Below the pieces are notes generated by a model that saw only the letters and a list, made by a program, of their open reading frames with translations, was not told the DNA's origin and ran no database searches. DNA of 64,000 nucleotides from Pseudomonadota bacterium (GTDB lineage Bacteria; Bdellovibrionota; UBA1018; CAIMNF01). Location of the stretch: NCBI GenBank assembly GCA_027486675.1, contig JAIXOQ010000004.1, positions 62,001 through 126,000 on the forward strand, read 5' to 3'. The position numbers were made by a program, and so were the translations under genes. Within the stretch, counting starts at the first letter, position 1. Each line of letters begins with the position of its first letter. This document shows positions 1-8,111 of the stretch, piece by piece.

Positions 1-341
1 AGCCAGTATTCTTTCAGGTGTAGGAATGCTTCCAACTTTATGGCTGTTATCTGCGGGACCAACGTGCACAACTCGGCTATATTCTCGGGCTGCAAATGCA
101 CTCTGGTTACCTCCTCATAGTCCTGGAGAATAATCGGAAGTGAAGTACTGTCCGCTACACGACGATAATGTCTGATGAATTCCGGTCCGTAGATCCAACC
201 ATCAGGAGGAGCGACCATTACAGCACCGGCCCTTAAATCGAGAGCTGATGCCGTCATTCTTATTGCCTCTTCCGTACCGTTGGCTGACGCACCAACGACT
301 ACAGGGCAACGACCATCAACTATTTCAAAGATTCTTCTAGA
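1..341 (-). pseudogene. Truncated dihydrodipicolinate synthase/aldolase-family gene
   Basis: Read on the minus strand, this stretch gives an uninterrupted piece of a DapA/NAL-family TIM-barrel aldolase. It contains a CPVVVGASANGTEEA segment, the APPDGWIYG segment and an AIKLEA segment, where the family's Schiff-base lysine sits. The C-terminal part lies outside the window. The N-terminal part that normally holds the first barrel strands and the GTTGE-like loop is missing. Homology stops at about base 341, exactly where the repeat at 342-375 begins. I read it as a gene cut off by a rearrangement at the edge of the accessory island. Family assignment is fairly sure; substrate is unknown because this family includes many non-DapA enzymes. 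Confidence 0.7.
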
Positions 342-375
342 GAGTAACTGGGGGACGCCGTGAATGGTGCCGAAG
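342..375 (+). repeat. 34-bp direct repeat, copy 1 (island edge)
   Basis: This sequence (gagtaactgggggacgccgt onward) recurs at 3435-3468 in the same orientation with two differences. In copy 2 it is part of a small reading frame encoding SNWGTPWMVP. Here the Trp codon is TGA, so the frame is broken. The repeat abuts the truncated aldolase and, with copy 2, brackets about 3.1 kb of accessory genes. Confidence 0.75.
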
Positions 376-435
376 AACTGGCGGGTTAGACATGAATACT
401 CAGTGCTATACACCAAGCACCGAAATCGGTGTGGT

Positions 436-1266
436 CTATCTTATGTGCCGAACTTGGCCGGAAATGCGAATCGAGTCGCCAGCATCCTTAGGAATCTTGG
501 CATAAATACGAGACCGCATCCCGATATCTTCCCCTTGAATGATTTCAATCTCGCCGCTACAAGGCCACTGAATATGTCTGAGATACCCAGCAAAAGCAGC
601 TGCAGAGGATCCAGTGGCTGGGTCCTCATAAACTCCGCCTGCTGCAAATGCGTTCCGAGCATGAAAGAGTTGTTCGTTTTCTGCGTATACGACCATCACA
701 GTCACAACTCCTAAATCATTCATGAGATGGAGTCCTTGGTCGAAATCATATCTCATGGCGGAAAGCCGGGTCTTACTGTTTAGAGCCAACAATAGGTGCT
801 CGTTTCCGGCATTGATAAATGCCGATGGAATCTTCTGATCTAAGTCACCCCGGGTATATCCAAAGACTCGTAGTGCCCTCGTGATCACGTCATCATTCGT
901 CGCCTGACTTCGGGTAGGAAACGACTGAAGTGCAGCTGTCATTGTGTTCTTTTTGCTCTCGGCTTCGACGGTAATGGATCCGCTACTGAGTAGGAGCGGG
1001 AACACACCATTTCCATTTTTCAGTGCGAGTGCGGCTCCGAGCGCGAGCGTCGCATGACCGCAGAAAGGAACTTCAACTGTTGGAGAGAAGTAACGGACGG
1101 TCCAGGCGTCCGCAGAAGGCGTTGCAAATACAGTCTCTGAATAGCCGACTTCACACGCGATTGCTTGCATTTGTTCTGCATCTGGCAGTTCGTCCGCGAG
1201 GACCACACCCGCAGGATTGCCCCCAGTGTCGCGGTCCGAAAAAGCAGCAAATTTCTGTACTCTCAT
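436..1266 (-). CDS. PhzF family isomerase/epimerase-like protein
   Basis: A 276-residue PhzF-family protein of usual length with the diaminopimelate-epimerase-like double fold. Visible family marks are the N-terminal GGNPAGVV segment, the EVGYSET segment whose Glu (about residue 44) matches the catalytic acid of PhzF enzymes, the VPFCGHAT motif near residue 70 and the EDPATGSS loop near residue 215. Relatives are cytoplasmic isomerases acting on small molecules; the substrate cannot be told from sequence. It stands alone between the truncated aldolase and a recombinase remnant, as cargo of the island. The reading frame is intact, and the ATG opens directly on the conserved MRVQKF start. Confidence 0.9.
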   Translation of the reverse strand: MRVQKFAAFSDRDTGGNPAGVVLADELPDAEQMQAIACEVGYSETVFATPSADAWTVRYFSPTVEVPFCGHATLALGAALALKNGNGVFPLLLSSGSITVEAESKKNTMTAALQSFPTRSQATNDDVITRALRVFGYTRGDLDQKIPSAFINAGNEHLLLALNSKTRLSAMRYDFDQGLHLMNDLGVVTVMVVYAENEQLFHARNAFAAGGVYEDPATGSSAAAFAGYLRHIQWPCSGEIEIIQGEDIGMRSRIYAKIPKDAGDSIRISGQVRHIR

Positions 1267-1324
1267 CCCACATGTTTATACACGAGCCAAACTAGATGCG
1301 ATAGCAAGCGACGCCTTAAGGACC

Positions 1325-1426
1325 TACGGAAGCACCATCGCGGACATCACACGCCACATGAATGCCCCCAAGATCCCGCCCCGCCGGGGACACGAGTGGC
1401 ACTACATGACCATCAGAAGCATTTTA
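1325..1426 (+). pseudogene. Serine-recombinase tail fragment, copy 1
   Basis: The frame reads ITRHMNAPKIPPRRGHEWHY then MTIRSIL. This is the end of the recombinase domain of large serine recombinases (pattern: few residues, W, T-x-R-S/N-I-L). A near-identical stretch occurs at 3161-3262 with roughly 85% nucleotide identity by eye. Nothing upstream continues the domain because PhzF occupies that side. It is an orphan 3' fragment of a recombinase gene, not a functional gene. Confidence 0.65.
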
Positions 1427-1486
1427 ATTCAGCCGTGTGCCGGATGCTTGCAATTTCAGTGCTCCAGGCAGAACCCATAATTCTTC

Positions 1487-1515
1487 TCGACATAGTATGC
1501 CATATATGGCATAAT
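1487..1515 (+). promoter_or_regulatory. Promoter with embedded palindromic operator for the HigBA-type pair
   Basis: A sigma70-like promoter can be read as TCGACA (1487-1492), 17-bp spacer, CATAAT (1510-1515). The perfect 18-bp palindrome tatgccatatatggcata (1496-1513) fills the spacer and enters the -10 box, the expected place for autorepression by a toxin-antitoxin complex. Transcription would start near 1522 and the toxin ATG is at 1524, with no ribosome binding site before it. The mRNA is therefore probably leaderless. Confidence 0.6.
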
Positions 1516-1523
1516 CGTACATA

Positions 1524-1823
1524 ATGAGGGTGAAGCGCACTGACGAGTTTGATGCCTGGTTTGACGACCAGAATGTAAAAGACCAGGCTCAGGTGGATGC
1601 TCGCATCCAAAGAATTGAAGATCATGATCATTTCGGTGACGCAAAGGATTTGGGAGAAGGCTTAGCTGAACTTCGCTGGGCAAATGGTAGGCGAGTCTAC
1701 TTCACTCGAGTTTACGATACAGATGGTTCACTCGTTTTATTGATTTTAGGAGGAATGAAGAATGGCCAGAAAAAAGACATCAAAAAAGCAAGGCTTCTCG
1801 TTCGAAAATATGCCCATGCTTGA
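1524..1823 (+). CDS. RelE/HigB-superfamily toxin (HI1419-like)
   Basis: A 99-residue protein of the RelE/HigB superfamily, 'addiction module killer' (HI1419-like) subgroup. The recognisable pattern is FDAWFDD near the start, a GDAKDLGEGLAELRW segment in the middle and a GRRVYFTRVY strand, followed by a Lys-rich helix with KKDIKKA near the C terminus. Members cut mRNA at the ribosome and are neutralised by the partner antitoxin. The stop lies 62 nt inside the next gene, the usual toxin-first order for this subgroup. Chosen start is the first ATG after the palindromic promoter. Confidence 0.85.
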   Translation: MRVKRTDEFDAWFDDQNVKDQAQVDARIQRIEDHDHFGDAKDLGEGLAELRWANGRRVYFTRVYDTDGSLVLLILGGMKNGQKKDIKKARLLVRKYAHA

Positions 1824-2094
1824 GCTGAAGTCGAACGTTAAGTTTAAGGATGCCAAGGCGTCTGATCGTTTGAAGGATAGGCACTATGTTGCCGCTGCGC
1901 TCATTCAGTGCCTTCAAGATGGCGATGCGGATGCATTTAAGGAAATTCTTGGTAGTTATCTAGACGTAGTGAATAAGAGCAATTTTTCGAAGAAAACAGA
2001 CATTCCTGAGCGAACTCTCTACAGGATGGTTTCTGATGAAGGTAATCCAACACTAGATAACATTGCTCGTGTTGTACATGCGCTCTGTGCCTAA
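1762..2094 (+). CDS. HI1420-like HTH antitoxin
   Basis: A 110-residue DNA-binding antitoxin partner of the upstream toxin. The C-terminal half carries the family's helix-turn-helix region: LGSYLDVVNKSNFSKKTDIP, then ERTLYRMVSDEGNPTLDNIA, matching the 'alSresLYralsedGNPtl' pattern of HI1420-type 'putative addiction module antidote' proteins. The first 25 residues are Lys-rich and overlap the toxin gene by 62 nt. Translation is probably coupled. It likely binds the palindrome at 1496-1513 to repress the pair. Confidence 0.85.
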   Translation: MARKKTSKKQGFSFENMPMLELKSNVKFKDAKASDRLKDRHYVAAALIQCLQDGDADAFKEILGSYLDVVNKSNFSKKTDIPERTLYRMVSDEGNPTLDNIARVVHALCA

Positions 2095-2136
2095 GAAGGT
2101 GCGGTCTTCAAAAACGACAAATTAGGGGGACAATTG

Positions 2137-2505
2137 ATGCTTATCGAGTTTCCAAATGTAAATCGCTCATTGCTCGTCATCCAATTCAAGCAACCTTACC
2201 TAGACTGGGCGAACCAACTTCCTGATCCTCCCGAAAAGGGACTGCCTGATCCACAAGTATTTGAAAACTTTGACCAAGAACCGCGTGCATATCTAATCCC
2301 CGAAATCTTCGATGAAGACGAGTTAGAGGCTTTTTTTGAGAGAATGTGGATTTCACTATTCGAGAGTTTACTCGCCGATCGGGTATCCGACGAAAAACAC
2401 TGGCCAAAAAAGAGAACGATGAAAATGTTTGCTAACTGGTTTGAACTCTCATTTACTTCGACTGTGAGCGATCTTTGGAGCAAGGAACCGCTGGAGCACG
2501 TTTGA
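2137..2505 (+). CDS. Conserved hypothetical protein, VNRSLLVI family
   Basis: A 122-residue acidic protein starting MLIEFPNVNRSLLVI. It contains PYLDWANQLPDPPE, RAYLIPEIFDEDE, an aromatic FFERMWISLFESLLADRV segment and WPKKRTMKMFANWFELSF. I recognise this layout from a widespread family of unknown function that is often annotated as hypothetical protein. There is no signal peptide or membrane segment, so it is probably cytoplasmic. The ATG at 2137 is preferred over the TTG three bases earlier because aggggg lies 7 bases upstream of it. It follows the antitoxin by 42 bp. Its stop sits 5 bp before tRNA-tail copy A. Confidence 0.75.
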   Translation: MLIEFPNVNRSLLVIQFKQPYLDWANQLPDPPEKGLPDPQVFENFDQEPRAYLIPEIFDEDELEAFFERMWISLFESLLADRVSDEKHWPKKRTMKMFANWFELSFTSTVSDLWSKEPLEHV

Positions 2506-2510
2506 TAATT

Positions 2511-2783
2511 GCCCGCCGCGATTCATGGACGCCATCGTGGCGTCCACCCTTCGGGCGACACTCGTTACACTCGTGTCGTGCAAAAATGCCATCATGGCAT
2601 TTTTGTCATGTCGGCACATCCTGTGCCTCGCCCTTAGGGCGATGCTCATAAATTCGCATCGTGCGTTTTGGCCATCATGGCGGGTGCGGTGCTTTTGCTC
2701 GCTTCACGCTCGCAAAGTCCACATTCAGTGGACACGCATCCTCCCCATTTTTTCGCTTCCAGCTCAAAAATTGTCGAACACGG
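2511..2783. repeat. tRNA-tail plus hairpin-array unit, copy A (degenerate)
   Basis: It begins with gcccgccgcgattc (2511-2524), the last part of the tRNA-Arg(UCU) gene at 6225 in the same orientation. It continues as a chain of small inverted repeats: ggacgcca-tcg-tggcgtcc, a cgacac/gtgtcg hairpin, aaaaatgcca-tca-tggcattttt, and ggcac-atcct-gtgcc. A fourth CCATCATGG hairpin (near 2670) lacks its right half. After the array, tcgaacacgg (2774-2783) resumes the tRNA T-arm sequence. The following bases up to about 2856 match copy C (to 6094), but the long inverted repeat present there is absent here. Short reading frames across it are by-products. Confidence 0.75.
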
Positions 2784-2878
2784 CGCTTCGCTACGTCTTC
2801 TCACCGCTAGCAGGCAAGCGACAATTTTTCCGTCTCACTCAGAGATACCTATCCCCAATCGTGTATCTAGCGGATTTT

Positions 2879-3310
2879 ATTCCGTTTGCTGTAAGACGCA
2901 GAGTCTCTTTTTCTGAGGAAATCGCCGATTCTTACACTGAAGGTGCGTCTTTGCAGAAATTAGCGCGGCTACATCAGGTCTCAAAGAACACTGCACGTAG
3001 AACATTATAAGACCAAGGTATTGCCATTCGTCACAGTAAAGAATGGCAGGACGGATTCTTTCGCGGGACACCGCCCTATGGATTTGTAGCCATAGACGGG
3101 AAGCTCATGGAGTGTCCGCGTGAACAACAAAACCTAAAGATCATCCTGAAACTCTGGCATGCAGGCAGCACATTCGCGGACATCACGCGCCACATGAATG
3201 ACCACAAGATCCCGCCACGCCGGGCACGCGAGTGGCACTACATGACCATTAGATCGATCTTGAAATACCAAAGTGAGCAGAACCAAAAACCAAAGGAGAC
3301 TGAACTATGA
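2879..3310 (+). pseudogene. Decayed serine recombinase C-terminal region
   Basis: One reading frame runs through an HTH-like part (LQKLARLHQVSKNTARRTL), an in-frame TAA at 3008-3010, then TPPYGFVAIDGKLMECPREQ and ITRHMNDHKIPPRRAREWHY, ending SILKYQ and a Lys-rich tail. The second part matches the 'recombinase' domain that follows the catalytic domain in large serine recombinases. The catalytic N-terminal domain with its active serine is absent. Upstream sequence is the hairpin repeat. One nonsense codon and loss of the catalytic part make this a relic. A second copy of its tail lies at 1325-1426. Confidence 0.7.
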
Positions 3311-3540
3311 ACCTCGACAAACTTGTACCCGTGGCAATTGCATTTGCGTTGATGGCAGCGGCCAGCGGGAACCTACCCTAGGTCATCCATCAGATTCGGA
3401 TTGCTCAGGCGCACTTGATTCAAGAATCAAAAGCGAGTAACTGGGGGACGCCGTGGATGGTGCCGGAGTCAGTGCGCCGATACCATTGGGTTAGGCTGAA
3501 GCGCACGCGCTTAGGATTTCACTCGAAAACTACGAAATGA
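3307..3540 (+). pseudogene. Small reading frame with one internal stop, tail of the recombinase module
   Basis: It starts ATGA-overlapped with the recombinase remnant and reads MNLDKLVPVAIAFALMAAAS. A TAG follows at 3379-3381, and the same frame then continues for 52 codons (QIRIAQAHLIQESKASNWGT and onward) to TGA at 3540. The hydrophobic start suggests a membrane anchor or signal sequence. The 34-bp repeat lies in the second half. I do not recognise the family. The frame staying open on both sides of one stop suggests recent inactivation. Confidence 0.5.
3435..3468 (+). repeat. 34-bp direct repeat, copy 2
   Basis: Second copy of the repeat at 342-375, same orientation, with two mismatches over about 34 bp. 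It lies inside the frame encoding SNWGTPWMVPE. The pair brackets PhzF, the HigBA-type pair and the recombinase remnant. Confidence 0.75.
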
Positions 3541-3613
3541 GGGTCTGATCCCGCATGAACTTACAATGAATCAATCGAATTGATAGTGAGGCCGTTCGAC
3601 AAAGGTAGAGGAT

Positions 3614-3642
3614 TTGACATTCTCATACTAAAAAAGTAAGAC
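3614..3642 (+). promoter_or_regulatory. Possible promoter of the transglutaminase-like gene
   Basis: A perfect -35 box TTGACA (3614-3619) is followed after 17 bp by a weak -10 (TAAGAC, 3637-3642). Transcription would begin at about 3649, where the GTG start codon lies, so the gene would be leaderless. Confidence 0.35.
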
Positions 3643-3648
3643 TTTCGC

Positions 3649-4521
3649 GTGCCGCGCATAACTAAACTCCTACCATCATCCTTAGGCTTCTCGCTCATTT
3701 TGTTAAGTATTTCAGCGCACGCCGGGATCTGTCGGTGGCTTACGGAAAGGAATCTTTCTAACGGTCTCTCAAAAAAAGAGATTAAGTACGTTTCCACGCA
3801 AGTGGAGCTCGATACAAATCGGTCGAACTATTGGATCTGGGGAAAAGAACGCCTTGCAAGGGACGAACGGATCATCGTTCTTGTTGACGCAAAGCTCGAT
3901 AATCATTTGGCAAAATGGTTCGAGAAAGAAAGCCTTCATAAATACAAGGACATCGCTTCAATTGATGCATTGGCGGAGAGGGTAGAACTCACTTTCTTTG
4001 AGTCATTAAAAGAGGAACCGAACAAAAAACGTGTTGCCAGACATGAGAAACTCACTGGTATCGACATACTCTATGGCACGAATAGAATCACGAAGTTGGG
4101 AGACTACATCAAAAATGGCATCGGAGAATGCAGACACCAAAGTGTTTTGATGGCCGTGGCTCTTTTACGCTCATCCATTCATGCAAGTGTTCTTACGGGA
4201 TACCTTCGCGCAGTGACTTCTGCCGGAAAAGTATTGAACGGAGTCGGGCACGCGCTGGTTCAATATGAATTTGAGGGAAAATCTTACATCGTCGATCCTA
4301 TAAATCGAGTCGATTCGATACCTAAGCCTTCTGACGGCGACATTAAGCTATTTACGTATTTTGATGAGTCGCTTGAATCGGATGTCGACGTGATTTTTTC
4401 GCCGGATCAACATCAATTTACGCCCCCTCTATCTCGAGTGGACGCAACCAATCTCGAACTACTCTCTCCAGAAACGAAATCGACTTTTCGCGAAAGAAGA
4501 AAAAGTCGCTGGGATTTCTAG
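3649..4521 (+). CDS. Secreted transglutaminase-like cysteine protein (EDR1-like)
   Basis: A 290-residue protein with an N-terminal signal peptide (hydrophobic SLGFSLILLSISAHA, cleavage after AHA near residue 25). The core has the three spaced motifs of transglutaminase-like/EDR1-type folds: IGECRHQSVLM around residue 165 (catalytic Cys), GVGHALVQYEF around 205 (His) and KSYIVDPINR around 217 (Asp). Such proteins are papain-like hydrolases or transferases, and the export signal places this one in the periplasm or outside. Substrate is unknown. The GTG start is chosen because the signal peptide begins there. It is cargo between the recombinase relic and a toxin-antitoxin-like pair. Confidence 0.8.
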   Translation: MPRITKLLPSSLGFSLILLSISAHAGICRWLTERNLSNGLSKKEIKYVSTQVELDTNRSNYWIWGKERLARDERIIVLVDAKLDNHLAKWFEKESLHKYKDIASIDALAERVELTFFESLKEEPNKKRVARHEKLTGIDILYGTNRITKLGDYIKNGIGECRHQSVLMAVALLRSSIHASVLTGYLRAVTSAGKVLNGVGHALVQYEFEGKSYIVDPINRVDSIPKPSDGDIKLFTYFDESLESDVDVIFSPDQHQFTPPLSRVDATNLELLSPETKSTFRERRKSRWDF

Positions 4522-4813
4522 ATGGTGTATTTTCCCTAGACCGAAGCATTTCTCTAGATCTCGCTCCATAAATCAGGGCACATCGATCGGATGATTACCC
4601 ACGGCCTGCGCGACCTAAGTTCCTGAACGCTGAGGCTTATGACTTAGGAAAAAACTCTCAGCGCTGGACGAACCGGAATGATCACCAAGAACCTTCCCGC
4701 ATTTTACAATCACGTGCATGTCGGTTGGCCCAAGACTTAATGAGTGATCTTACTGACTGGCAATCTATGCAAGGCACAGGGCGTGGTCCACTTGAGTCCC
4801 TGGTGTGATGGCC
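4522..4813. other. Intergenic gap without recognised content
   Basis: 292 bases between two convergent gene ends. I see no convincing reading frame, RNA gene or strong terminator hairpin. It may contain decayed sequence. Confidence 0.5.
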
Positions 4814-5116
4814 TCAACTCACTTTTAACTCCAAATTCGGATTAATTTTTTCATACAGACTAATGAGCCTGTCTGTTGAAAATTCATCCAGTCGATTGCG
4901 CAGAATCTTACTCACTTTGGCTTCATCAATTCCAAGAATTTTTGACATCTCTCGCTGAGTAATTTTTTTTACCATGAGGTACACAACAAATTTTTGCTGT
5001 AGATCAAACCTAAGCTTCTCAAGCGGAGTTGGGTTCAATGGAGGTGCAAGCGTACCCTCCACTTTTTCGAGCTTCTTTAAGACCTTGTTAATTTCAGCAC
5101 GGCTAGGAAATCCCAT
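4814..5116 (-). CDS. XRE-family HTH antitoxin-like protein
   Basis: A 100-residue protein with an HTH of the HTH_37/XRE type in its C-terminal half: KKITQREMSKILGIDEAKVS, then KILRNRLDEFSTDRLISLYE. The LrnrLdeFStdrLisL pattern is typical of antitoxins encoded just after a RelE/HigB-like toxin. The N-terminal half is a charged helical region for partner binding. It begins two bases after the stop of the upstream toxin-like gene, so the two are one transcript. It probably represses from the inverted repeat at 5430-5445. Confidence 0.75.
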   Translation of the reverse strand: MGFPSRAEINKVLKKLEKVEGTLAPPLNPTPLEKLRFDLQQKFVVYLMVKKITQREMSKILGIDEAKVSKILRNRLDEFSTDRLISLYEKINPNLELKVS

Positions 5117-5118
5117 AA

Positions 5119-5409
5119 CTACCTCCGATAAGCGTTCACAACGCCAATATAAAACTGATCATCTTCAAGGAGCCAGATGAGCTTGTACCGCTTCCCATTC
5201 AATTCCATCTTGTCTTCGACAAAATAGGAGTAGCTCGTATCCACATCATCTGGAACCATCACCCGTCCATCGAGCTGCCTCACTAAAGCGAGGATGATTT
5301 CGTCCGAAACGCTGTCAGCATGCTTTTCTTCGTAATGCGGCGAAATAATCACTTTCTTGATCACCCGAAAATTAAAGCGAATGCTAATGTCATACTCGCG
5401 GAGCTGCAC
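5119..5409 (-). CDS. Putative type II toxin (DUF4258/RelE-like)
   Basis: A 96-residue protein. Its layout is IIKSPH-like [18 protein letters not shown], a central helix and a strand pair [20 protein letters not shown] followed by [17 protein letters not shown]. It resembles small RelE-fold or DUF4258-type toxins, and the tightly coupled HTH gene downstream fits a toxin-first type II pair. I am not certain of the family. It starts with GTG, with aagaag a few bases upstream and a taaaat -10-like box before that. It is part of the tRNA-Arg island cargo. Confidence 0.6.
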
Positions 5410-5429
5410 TCTTCTTATTTTAACCTAGT

Positions 5430-5445
5430 TTGCCATTTTTGGCAA
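5430..5445 (-). promoter_or_regulatory. Inverted repeat upstream of the second toxin-antitoxin-like pair
   Basis: ttgcca-tttt-tggcaa, 6-bp arms, 21 bp upstream of the toxin start. On the minus strand it lies just upstream of a TAAAAT-like -10 box, so it is well placed as an operator for the HTH partner. Confidence 0.5.
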
Positions 5446-5513
5446 GTAGGTCCTTTGTCTGGTTTTTTTCCCAAACATGCTAGGTCTTCATGGGTGTGGG
5501 GTTCAAATATTAG

Positions 5514-5708
5514 TGGCGCGCCCGCCGCGATTCATGTCGCCCATCCATGGGCGCCACCCTCCGGGCGACACTCGTTTCACTCGCGCCGTGCAAAAATGCC
5601 ATCATGGCATTTTTGTCATGTCGGCACATCCTGTGCCTCGCCCTTAGGGGCGATGCTCATGAATTCGCATCGTGCGATTCGGCCCTCATGGCCGAATCGT
5701 CGAACACG
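5514..5708. repeat. tRNA-tail plus hairpin-array unit, copy B
   Basis: It starts with tggcgcgcccgccgcgattc (5514-5533), an exact 20-bp copy of the 3' end of the tRNA-Arg at 6225, CCA included. The hairpin array follows: gcgcccat/atgggcgc variant, a degenerate cgacac hairpin, aaaaatgcca-tca-tggcattttt, ggcac-atcct-gtgcc and gattcggcc-ctcat-ggccgaatc. It ends with tcgaacacg (5700-5708), which resumes the tRNA T-arm. It is closely similar to copy A up to the last hairpin, which has a different stem. Confidence 0.85.
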
Positions 5709-5769
5709 TTAACTTCGACGTGTTCTCGTCGATGACAGGGCACGCCAAACAGTACCTACGCCTCAGAGG

Positions 5770-5887
5770 TACCCCTCTTATTTAATACTTCTTCCCAGTG
5801 AGGCTAAAAGAGCGGAGCAGGATGCGGAGCGATAGATCCCATGGATGGATCTGCCTCACTGGGAAGAAGTATTAAATAAGAGGGGTA
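5770..5887. repeat. Long inverted-repeat element 1 (35-bp perfect arms)
   Basis: The left arm 5770-5804 and right arm 5853-5887 are perfectly complementary over 35 bp, with a 48-base loop. The loop begins taaaagagcg, contains gcgatag, and ends in a small hairpin with the apex ccatggatgg. Loop landmarks are shared with element 2, whereas arm bases differ in a paired fashion. No reading frame of note. Confidence 0.95.
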
Positions 5888-5909
5888 TTTATGGGGCATG
5901 TTTTAGAAG

Positions 5910-6020
5910 TGGCGCGCCCGCCGCGATTCATGGACGCCATCGTGGCGTCCACCCTTCGGGCGACACTCGTTACACTCGCGTCGTGCGTTTTGGCCATCAT
6001 GGCCAAAACGTCGAACACGG
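5910..6020. repeat. tRNA-tail plus hairpin-array unit, copy C
   Basis: It starts with the same exact 20-bp tRNA-Arg tail (5910-5929). The array is shorter: ggacgcca-tcg-tggcgtcc, the cgacac hairpin, then gttttggcca-tca-tggccaaaac, followed by tcgaacacgg (6011-6020). Compared with copies A and B it looks like a deletion between two cgtgc motifs that removed the aaaaatg hairpin and its neighbours. The following bases to 6081 match copy A and lead into inverted-repeat element 2. Confidence 0.85.
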
Positions 6021-6081
6021 CGCTTCGCTACGTCTTCTCACCGCCAGCAGGCGAGCGACAATTTTTCCGTCTCACTCAGAG

Positions 6082-6201
6082 ATACCTATCCCCATACTTC
6101 TTTCCCCAAGTAAGGCTAAAAGAGCGTCGCACGATGCGACGCGATAGCACCCATGGATGGGTGGCCGCCTTACTTGGGGAAAGAAGTATGGGGATAGGTA
6201 T
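6082..6201. repeat. Long inverted-repeat element 2 (35-bp perfect arms)
   Basis: Arms 6082-6116 and 6167-6201 are perfectly complementary over 35 bp; the loop is 50 bases. The loop begins taaaagagcg, carries an 8-bp hairpin gcgtcgca-cga-tgcgacgc, then gatag and a second hairpin caccca-tgga-tgggtg. Single-stranded, it would form a Y-shaped three-way junction. It ends 23 bp from the 3' end of the tRNA-Arg gene. Confidence 0.95.
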
Positions 6202-6224
6202 TTAAGAGAAAAGAAGAAAAAAAT

Positions 6225-6301
6225 TGGCGCGCCCGCCGCGATTCGAACACGGGACCCCCTGATTAGAAATCAGGTGCTCTATCCAGCTGAGCTACGGGCG
6301 C
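6225..6301 (-). tRNA. tRNA-Arg (anticodon UCU)
   Basis: A full cloverleaf can be drawn: acceptor gcgcccg/cgggcgc, D arm gctc/gagc, anticodon stem cctga/tcagg around loop tttctaa (anticodon TCT), T stem ccgtg/cgcgg with ttcgaat loop, discriminator G and an encoded CCA. Total is 77 nt. Its last 20 nt are repeated exactly at 5910 and 5514 and partly at 2511, so it is the attachment-type anchor of the island. It is divergent from the lipoprotein gene at 6375. Confidence 0.97.
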
Positions 6302-6374
6302 ATTTTGATGGGAAGTGACCTCCCCTAGCCTAAACGAGAAATCGTCCCTCGGAAATGGTACCGTTAACCTTATC

Positions 6375-8111
6375 GTGAAAAGTCGACACCTTGCCCCGCT
6401 GGCCCTTCTGACCCTAATCACTGCCTGCTCTTCCGTGCCCGTAAAACGCAGGGTAACCCTACCTGGTCCCACCACTAGCGGGAACGCCTCCCCCAATCCA
6501 GGCTCGAAAAAGCCGGAGGAATATACGGGTACGAAGCAACCAACGAACTTTAAATTTGTTCAAAGCCAGTACCAGAAGGGTAATTTCCGGGAAGCCATCA
6601 AGGAAATCGAGGACACAACCCCGACCCCTCTGACCGAACGGGAAAAGACAGACCTCGCCAACATTCACGGACTCATCCTGCTTCGAATGAAACGATTTGA
6701 CGAAGCTGAACAATCATTCCTGCGCGCGATGGAACTCAATCCCGTCCCCCAGAACCGTCCCTACTTTCAATACAATCTGGCGTCCACTTACGTAGAGGCC
6801 AATCGCATCGACGATGCCCGCCGCATCATCGACTCCATCGCCCTCAGTAAGCTTGACCCAGATCATCAGGCCAAAGTCGCAGCACTCCAAAATCGCATTG
6901 ATGCGCGCGCCGGCACACCCAGCCAGTCAACACTCGCATCTTCAAGCCAAGCACCCGCGTTCGAACAGCCAACAGAAGTTTACAGAGGCAACACTCGTAG
7001 CCGCACCATTGGTGTCTTAGTACCGCTCTCTGGCCGCTACCAAACCTTTGGCGAGCGTGTCCTGCGCAGCGTTCAGTTCGCCCTCAAAGACAAACCTGAA
7101 TACGAAGTCGTCAGCGCCGACGCAGGTGAATCATTAACCTCTGCGATCAACGGCTTGCAGCAACTCATAGAAACAAAAGAAGCGGCAGTCGTCATTGGTC
7201 CCATATTAAGTACAGGTCTTGAGACCCTGACCGCAAAAGCTGCCTACTACCAAGTGCCATTATTATCCTTAGCGCCAGCCAGAGGGCCTGAAACGCCTGT
7301 GTATTTTGGCTGTGGGAATTCTCCGCAAGACCAAGTCAGCCGTATTTTAGAGTACGCAATTCAGGAAAAGGGTTGGAAGAAGTTTGCGATCTTGGCGCCA
7401 AAGAATAGAGCGGGCGAAGAATACGCACGCGAATTCTGGGATCAGGCTGAAACTGCCGGTGCGTCCATTCAAGGATTCGAACTTTACTCATCAACCGAAA
7501 CGGACTTCAGAAAAGCGATTGATCCGTTGGTTGGCCTATCCTTCGCAGACGACAGGAAATCTGAACTCGACGCATTGGAACGAATCCGTGAAAAAGAAGG
7601 TATCAAGAAACGAACACGCAAGACAGAGCGATACTTTGCGCTCCCACCCGTTGTAGATTTCGACGCCGTCTTTATCCCGGACGAAGCAAAGACCGTTGGC
7701 CAAATCCTTCCAACATTTGCTTACCGCGATGTGAACCAGATGAACTGGCTTGGGATTTCTTCTTGGAATTCAAAAGCCTTAATCGATCGTGCAGGGCCGC
7801 TTGCAGATTCGGCTGCGTTCCCTACGGCATTTTCAGCCTACAGAAAAACGCCGGAAACACGTGAGTTTATCCAAAAATTTGAGGCAACCTTTAAAGTTAC
7901 GCCCACAGAGCTTGAGGCCTATGCTTATGACGCAGCCCAGGTGGCGTTTAGCGCAATCGATGGCGGTGCGTCCACACGCGAAGATGTGACGCGCGCCTTC
8001 CGCCAAGGTGTACGCGGTGTGAAGGGCGCGACCGGGGACTTAGATCTTATGGCTGGCCGATGTCAGAGAAACCTGACCCTAGTCACCGTTCGCCGCGGGC
8101 AGTTTCAGTAA
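6375..8111 (+). CDS. LpoA/LppC-like lipoprotein with TPR and periplasmic-binding domain
   Basis: About 578 residues from the GTG at 6375. A lipoprotein signal (KSRHLAPLALLTLITAC) with lipobox ITAC puts the Cys near residue 18. The first third has TPR-like helices (KGNFREAIKEIEDT, then RMKRFDEAEQSFLRAMELNP). The rest is a type 1 periplasmic-binding (receptor ligand-binding) domain starting SRTIGVLVPLSGRYQTFGER. This architecture matches LpoA-type activators of class A penicillin-binding proteins, or branched-chain amino-acid-type receptors. An outer-membrane peptidoglycan role is likely but inferred. An upstream GTG at 6315 is possible but leaves only 13 bp to the tRNA and puts the signal sequence inside the protein. 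It overlaps the end of recN by 7 bp tail to tail. Confidence 0.85.
   Translation: MKSRHLAPLALLTLITACSSVPVKRRVTLPGPTTSGNASPNPGSKKPEEYTGTKQPTNFKFVQSQYQKGNFREAIKEIEDTTPTPLTEREKTDLANIHGLILLRMKRFDEAEQSFLRAMELNPVPQNRPYFQYNLASTYVEANRIDDARRIIDSIALSKLDPDHQAKVAALQNRIDARAGTPSQSTLASSSQAPAFEQPTEVYRGNTRSRTIGVLVPLSGRYQTFGERVLRSVQFALKDKPEYEVVSADAGESLTSAINGLQQLIETKEAAVVIGPILSTGLETLTAKAAYYQVPLLSLAPARGPETPVYFGCGNSPQDQVSRILEYAIQEKGWKKFAILAPKNRAGEEYAREFWDQAETAGASIQGFELYSSTETDFRKAIDPLVGLSFADDRKSELDALERIREKEGIKKRTRKTERYFALPPVVDFDAVFIPDEAKTVGQILPTFAYRDVNQMNWLGISSWNSKALIDRAGPLADSAAFPTAFSAYRKTPETREFIQKFEATFKVTPTELEAYAYDAAQVAFSAIDGGASTREDVTRAFRQGVRGVKGATGDLDLMAGRCQRNLTLVTVRRGQFQ

Follow-up and report, generated by a model that had tools for sequence, protein, structure and literature searches.

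The window, the whole stretch of 64,000 nucleotides analysed here, which comes from a relative of predatory bacteria, carries on its minus strand a tRNA-Arg(UCU) gene whose last 20 nt (6225-6244; plus-strand letters TGGCGCGCCCGCCGCGATTC) recur as copied tails. The copies have lower coordinates than the gene, so all the units that they close lie 3' of the tRNA. The features of the locus are as follows.

6225-6301, minus strand: tRNA-Arg(UCU) gene with encoded CCA (ARAGORN; Rfam tRNA, E=4e-13).
5910-6224, minus strand: unit A, 315 bp, with trailer, long palindrome, degenerate inverted T-arm, folded array and tail copy.
6083-6200, no strand: long palindrome X of unit A, with a conserved three-way-junction apex.
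5925-6015, minus strand: beta-type hairpin array of unit A, between the 5' half of a T-arm (GTGTTCGA) and the tail (alignment, covariation).
5910-5929, minus strand: tail copy closing unit A, 20/20 identical to tRNA-Arg(UCU).
5514-5909, minus strand: unit B, 396 bp, of the same plan as unit A with a longer hairpin array.
5758-5899, no strand: long palindrome X of unit B.
5529-5622, minus strand: beta-type hairpin array of unit B (alignment, covariation).
5514-5533, minus strand: tail copy closing unit B, 20/20 identical to tRNA-Arg(UCU).
2511-5513, no strand: 3-kb interval from the partial tail to unit B, with a recombinase fragment, a transglutaminase-like ORF and a toxin-antitoxin-like pair.
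2520-2860, minus strand: array of hairpins in the distal unit; parts of units A and B match it at 90-98% identity.
2671-2746, minus strand: alpha-type folded domain within the distal array (covariance model R2, 32.5 bits, E=1.6e-5).
2511-2524, minus strand: partial tail copy, 14 nt, of the most distal unit, which is read as the oldest.

An earlier note on this DNA had reported exact repeats of the tail at 5514 and 5910, and 14 nt of it at 2511, all in the orientation of the tRNA. Every one was confirmed, and the tail followed by ATG occurs at three places only in the 2.70-Mb genome, all at this locus (a reversed-pattern control gave 0). Read on the tRNA strand, the compact units run from a trailer through palindrome X, a degenerate inverted T-arm (GTGAGAA.. 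or GACGAGAACACG) and the 5' half of a T-arm (CGTGTTCGA) to the array and the tail (GAATCGCGG..CCA). What the note called a hairpin array proved to be a defined structure, with homologues in the units beside other tRNA genes. The note had also described a 3-kb version of the unit with cargo; the tail remnant, the array and the genes are all present, but the interval 2511-5513 is probably the result of later insertions and not a single unit. Two fragments of the serine-recombinase 'Recombinase' domain (PF07508) lie at 1217-1480 and 3107-3310, with a repeated GAGTAACTGGGGGACGCCGTG.. stretch near each (about 341-371 and 3436-3466), and are probably decayed copies of one insertion. The region distal to the units also contains two toxin-antitoxin-like pairs (1524-2094 and 4814-5409), one a Gp49-like protein with an HI1420-type antidote, the other an HTH_37 protein beside a 96-aa ORF.

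The long inverted repeat, which the note had taken as part of the unit, is present as described, but palindrome X is a separate, patchy and dispersed family that also stands behind protein genes. With model R1, 11 copies were located in the window's genome, 20 in the related genome G020 and none in most relatives, the majority directly behind a tRNA or protein gene in sense; the exact apex pattern had no match in the genome contig collection searched. On the gene strand the apex is a hairpin followed by TCTTTTA, resembling an intrinsic terminator, with a conserved three-way junction, and the arms of about 40-50 bp are different in every copy yet complementary. Palindromes with arms of at least 28 bp lie behind 14 of 35 tRNAs in G020, 10 of 39 in G000 and 10 of 40 in G002, and upstream of 1 of 228; in much of G020 the arms of X reach 10-14 nt into the tRNA. 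Mismatches in the arms of long palindromes (GT 54, AC 42) show no clear strand or G-U bias, and with the terminator-like U run at the apex this led us to reject the long stems as RNA structure; the 3' arm is therefore probably not transcribed.

Matches of the palindromes to miRNA and other Rfam families fell below gathering scores and were taken as chance. A role as CsrA sponge was likewise rejected: GGA loops are common, yet those of the long palindromes, in most X elements, point to the antisense strand, and those of the arrays are of mixed orientation. The antisense strand of the palindrome behind a tmRNA gene (L363, 1345-1469) weakly matches the TwoAYGGAY motif (34.7 bits, threshold 43). 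A RAYT-like ORF ends 14 bp before a tRNA-Arg(TCG) gene that is followed by a long palindrome (L110, G000:C33:44800-49000), and ahead of RAYT genes of G020 (L112, L114, L115) lies a further three-way-junction hairpin, whose stem is variable and whose layout resembles that of the X apex.

The tails were surveyed at 254 tRNA genes of seven related genomes, which are draft assemblies or MAGs, as exact copies of at least 12 nt within 1 kb of the gene. Direct copies of a gene's own tail were found downstream of 22 of the 254 tRNAs, inverted copies downstream of 20, and neither upstream of any; in a control with the tails of other tRNAs, 12 of 19,756 tests matched (0.06%). Direct copies mostly span T-loop position 56/57 to CCA (19-22 nt). 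They occur at 12 of 40 tRNAs in G002, while inverted copies occur at 13 of 35 in G020, and the same survey found no own-tail copies in G005. Units thus stand beside many tRNA genes, each with the local tail, and orthologous tRNA sites that are empty in relatives were found as well, a sign by which the earlier note had proposed that mobility might be recognised. The site behind tRNA-Val is empty in G001 and holds a unit in G003; that behind tRNA-Gln is empty in G001 and G003 and occupied in G002; that behind tRNA-Cys is empty in G002 and G005 and occupied in G001 and G003; and empty and occupied orthologous sites behind tRNA-Leu were found among G001, G002 and G003. At tRNA-Arg(UCU) itself, a unit remnant is present in G009 and absent from G001 and G003. 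The tRNA-Cys and tRNA-Leu units of G001 and G003 have tails that are exact over 21/21 nt and bodies that differ by 11-21%, which suggests constraint or conversion and not only recent insertion.

Of the 22 direct-copy units, 14 contain an inverted tail that is specific to their own tRNA (rank 3 or better of 165). This order of tail, inverted tail and tail would be expected if hairpins behind tRNAs provoked template switching, so that the repeats were local fold-back duplications with no mobile element involved. Inverted triplication has been modelled (PMC4689423), and those G020 palindromes whose arms of about 50 bp extend 10-14 nt into the tRNA, together with the lack of strand bias in the arm mismatches, fit such an origin. 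Yet the direct tail is nearly always nearer the tRNA than the inverted copy and was therefore not copied from it, and no local process can place homologous bodies at unrelated tRNAs or near-identical ones at separate sites. Pure fold-back was accordingly rejected as the sole cause, and we regard the fold-back account as improbable. The inverted copy is also less similar to the tRNA than the direct copy is. At tRNA-Gln of G002 the inverted copy reads CCTAGCG, as in the tRNA of G000, and the gene and its direct tail both read CCTTGCG. From this pattern and the closer likeness of the direct tail, the latter seems to have been copied from, or kept equal to, the tRNA itself.

Model R2, which represents one body type (alpha) and was built from bodies without any tail, matched 13 of 55 genomes of the order and 26 of 291 of the phylum, including distant families. 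A tRNA or tmRNA gene precedes about 35 of the 43 loci inspected, mostly by 17-320 nt, and about 24 of 43 abut an exact 14-21 nt copy of their own gene's tail; these counts rest partly on reading of the flanks by eye where ARAGORN missed a truncated tRNA. The own-tail loci involve tRNAs of Cys, Val, Ser, Gln, Asp, Arg, Met, Pro, Asn and Lys. Behind one tmRNA gene, the tmRNA tail is copied both inverted (17 nt) and direct (20 nt), and in G182 two tandem, near-identical units of about 200 bp follow a tRNA-Pro gene. Presence is patchy, and many genomes have none. Among named records, the alpha pattern matched Bdellovibrionales MAGs as well as two related MAG records; the pattern was absent from IMG/VR and from phage records, and the plasmid matches listed cover the tRNA end of the query only. 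A search for literature on tRNA-tail repeats in Bdellovibrio gave nothing relevant. The Rfam family sX4, a proteobacterial sRNA, gives weak scores that span a tRNA together with its 3' unit (L385, 1076-1241; L388, 1771-1875), and sX4 may be another locus of this kind.

Between the tails lies a folded body that is conserved. Two domains recur in all the alpha-type bodies, taken from seven loci, with compensatory changes at 14 of 31 pairs, a value reached by none of 500 shuffles. For the beta-type arrays, an alignment of eight units from behind four kinds of tRNA in three genomes, the window's units A and B among them, gave compensatory changes at 21 of 26 pairs. Alpha stems contain 11 G-U and 0 A-C cells, a hint that it is the tRNA-sense strand that folds, although a weak one, because 6 of the 11 G-U cells fall at one pair and the beta stems show no clear bias (4 to 2). 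Near-identical bodies (107/108) stand behind tRNA-Ser(CGA) and tRNA-Ser(GCT) of G042, each with its own tail, and two bodies that are 123/124 identical occupy unrelated sites of the window's genome.

Repeats of 178 bp, RtT, have long been known at a single E. coli tRNA locus, tyrT, and a regulatory role in the stringent response has been suggested for them; our search found no open paper on their function. In tyrTV, 19-nt tail copies occur three times behind tyrV and once behind tyrT, and the order of the parts is inverted tail (GGGGAAGGATGAGAAGCT), half-arm (AAGGTTCGA), hairpins and tail. The E. coli unit has in common with the units described here the tail, the inverted GATGAGAA stretch, the AAGGTTCGA half-arm and the hairpins. 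Position 3' of a tRNA in sense, with a repeat of its 3' end including CCA, is found on both sides, as is an inverted tail followed by the T-arm 5' half GGTTCGA; the inverted element reads GATGAGAA in locus L017, a relative's unit with the same loop change from TTCGAA to TGAGAA as in E. coli, and GATGAGAG in L018, and the window's own units have GTGAGAA and GACGAGAA, each followed by GTGTTCGA. The RF00391 model had no match at E<=1 in positions 1-8000 of the window and none in 23 related loci at E<=0.1 or 0.5, so the units are called RtT-like rather than members of RF00391. Copy number, the other sign of mobility, varies from 0 to 5 RtT units among E. coli strains (EC200461 none, CUVET21-37 one, K-12 four), with exact empty sites at which the sequence resumes right after the tail: behind tyrT, K-12 has one unit and a tail, and EC200461 and CUVET21-37 run straight from CCA to TCTCAAG.

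It could be argued that the element is a host RNA, co-transcribed with the tRNA, matured at its 3' end by means of the tail and regulatory in function, its mobility being incidental. The covarying structure, the 11 to 0 ratio in the alpha stems, the E. coli RttR small-RNA annotation, which ends at the copied CCA, and the exact tails of G001 and G003 beside diverged bodies all speak for such a conserved tRNA-linked small RNA. Set against them are the patchy distribution, bodies copied to sites without a tRNA, the beta stems with their 4 to 2 ratio, the 0-5 copies among E. coli strains and the intrinsic terminators between tRNA and unit at many loci. As many Bdellovibrionota units lie beyond such a terminator, a purely RNA-based account is weakened there, and overall we think this reading unlikely, if a serious contender.

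The earlier note had suggested small non-autonomous elements, a proposal that fits the homologous units, the empty sites, the variable copy number, the tandem accretion and the near-identical bodies. Its further suggestion, mobilisation by an integrase, found no support. On that reading the units would be satellites integrated by a tyrosine integrase encoded elsewhere and the tails duplications of an att core, which suits the block of identity from T-loop to CCA, the empty sites and the tandem accretion. Against it, no more than two tyrosine recombinases, most likely XerC and XerD, are present in each of G001, G003 and G009, all of them genomes with units or unit remnants, and there are 10 such recombinases in G005, which has no unit, and 18 in G016, which has one weak tail match. 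One body type carries the tails of many tRNAs in place of a single att core; each tail matches its own host gene at many tRNAs and at tmRNA, as no single attP would, and duplication of an att site does not predict the inverted tail inside most units. Integration of this kind is thus very improbable. RAYT genes, common in these genomes overall, gave no match in G001, G003, G009 and G011, all with units or unit remnants, and no reverse transcriptase was found in G000, G001 and G011, so the units were not assigned to retroelements. RAYT, reverse transcriptase and tyrosine integrase were each rejected as mobilisers, none of them correlating with the units.

The explanation we favour, and to which we give about an even chance, is that these are RtT-like repeats: structured, non-autonomous elements whose insertion behind a tRNA-like 3' end duplicates about 20 bp of it. 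Such a unit is non-coding, folds as a single strand of about 110-170 nt and often has an additional terminator or palindrome on its 5' side. Since the direct tail appears copied from, or kept equal to, the tRNA, entry beside the tRNA with duplication of positions 56-76 is preferred. A new unit would enter beside the tRNA, helped perhaps by pairing of an anti-T-arm stretch (GATTYGAA; in the beta type GATGAGAA) with the conserved T-loop, and a staggered cut or copying step from position 56 to 76 would leave the tRNA intact and about 20 bp duplicated. Repeated entry and recombination between tails would then build tandem arrays with the oldest units distal. Both the guide role of the anti-T-arm stretch and an enzyme for entry are postulated here. 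The E. coli unit is annotated as a small RNA whose last letters are the copied CCA; by analogy, a part in maturing the 3' end of an RNA may be a further reason why the tail is kept. Several points count against RtT-like insertion: the units show no correlation with any transposase, integrase or reverse transcriptase, the tails of G001 and G003 stay exact beside diverged bodies, deletion between short direct repeats is another possible source of precise empty sites, and an additional step is required to explain the inverted tail found in most units.

More tentatively, and with less than even probability, the units may belong to a class of non-coding mobile DNA whose anti-T-arm stretch pairs with the T-loop and which copies positions 56-76, E. 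coli RtT being the first-seen member; if so, one element family could colonise any tRNA or tmRNA gene harmlessly. What was for decades a curiosity of a single locus, the E. coli tyrT repeats, becomes a widespread, patchy family at many tRNA genes and tmRNA, with natural empty sites in a laboratory species. How a tail is duplicated without an integrase, and whether RtT is selfish, regulatory or both, are therefore directly testable questions.

Several known systems invite comparison. Integrative elements and satellites at tRNA genes likewise use the tRNA 3' end as their site, restore the tRNA and leave the tail as a direct repeat, whereas the present units measure 100-400 bp, have no link to an integrase, always carry the tail of the local tRNA and contain it inverted as well. 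REP and REPIN sequences mobilised by RAYT are also dispersed hairpin DNA, but the units are without a recognised GTAG-tagged short palindrome, and tRNA-tail anchoring is not among the REP features that are described in the relevant part of PMC3733652. Integron cassettes with attC are similar in having a folded single-strand site of about 130-150 nt, polar growth of arrays and, as in the window, cargo-like distal genes; they differ in their attC core consensus, which inspection by eye did not find in the units. The closest known thing to the window's units is the E. coli tyrTV RtT repeat, which has the same plan. The RtT-like units differ from it in standing at many tRNAs and tmRNA rather than at tRNA-Tyr only, in having several body types and in the terminators or long palindromes that often precede the body. 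They agree with it in their sense position 3' of the tRNA, in the exact tail from T-loop to CCA, in the tandem copies and in an inverted tail, with TTCGAA changed to TGAGAA, that is followed by the 5' half of the T-arm.
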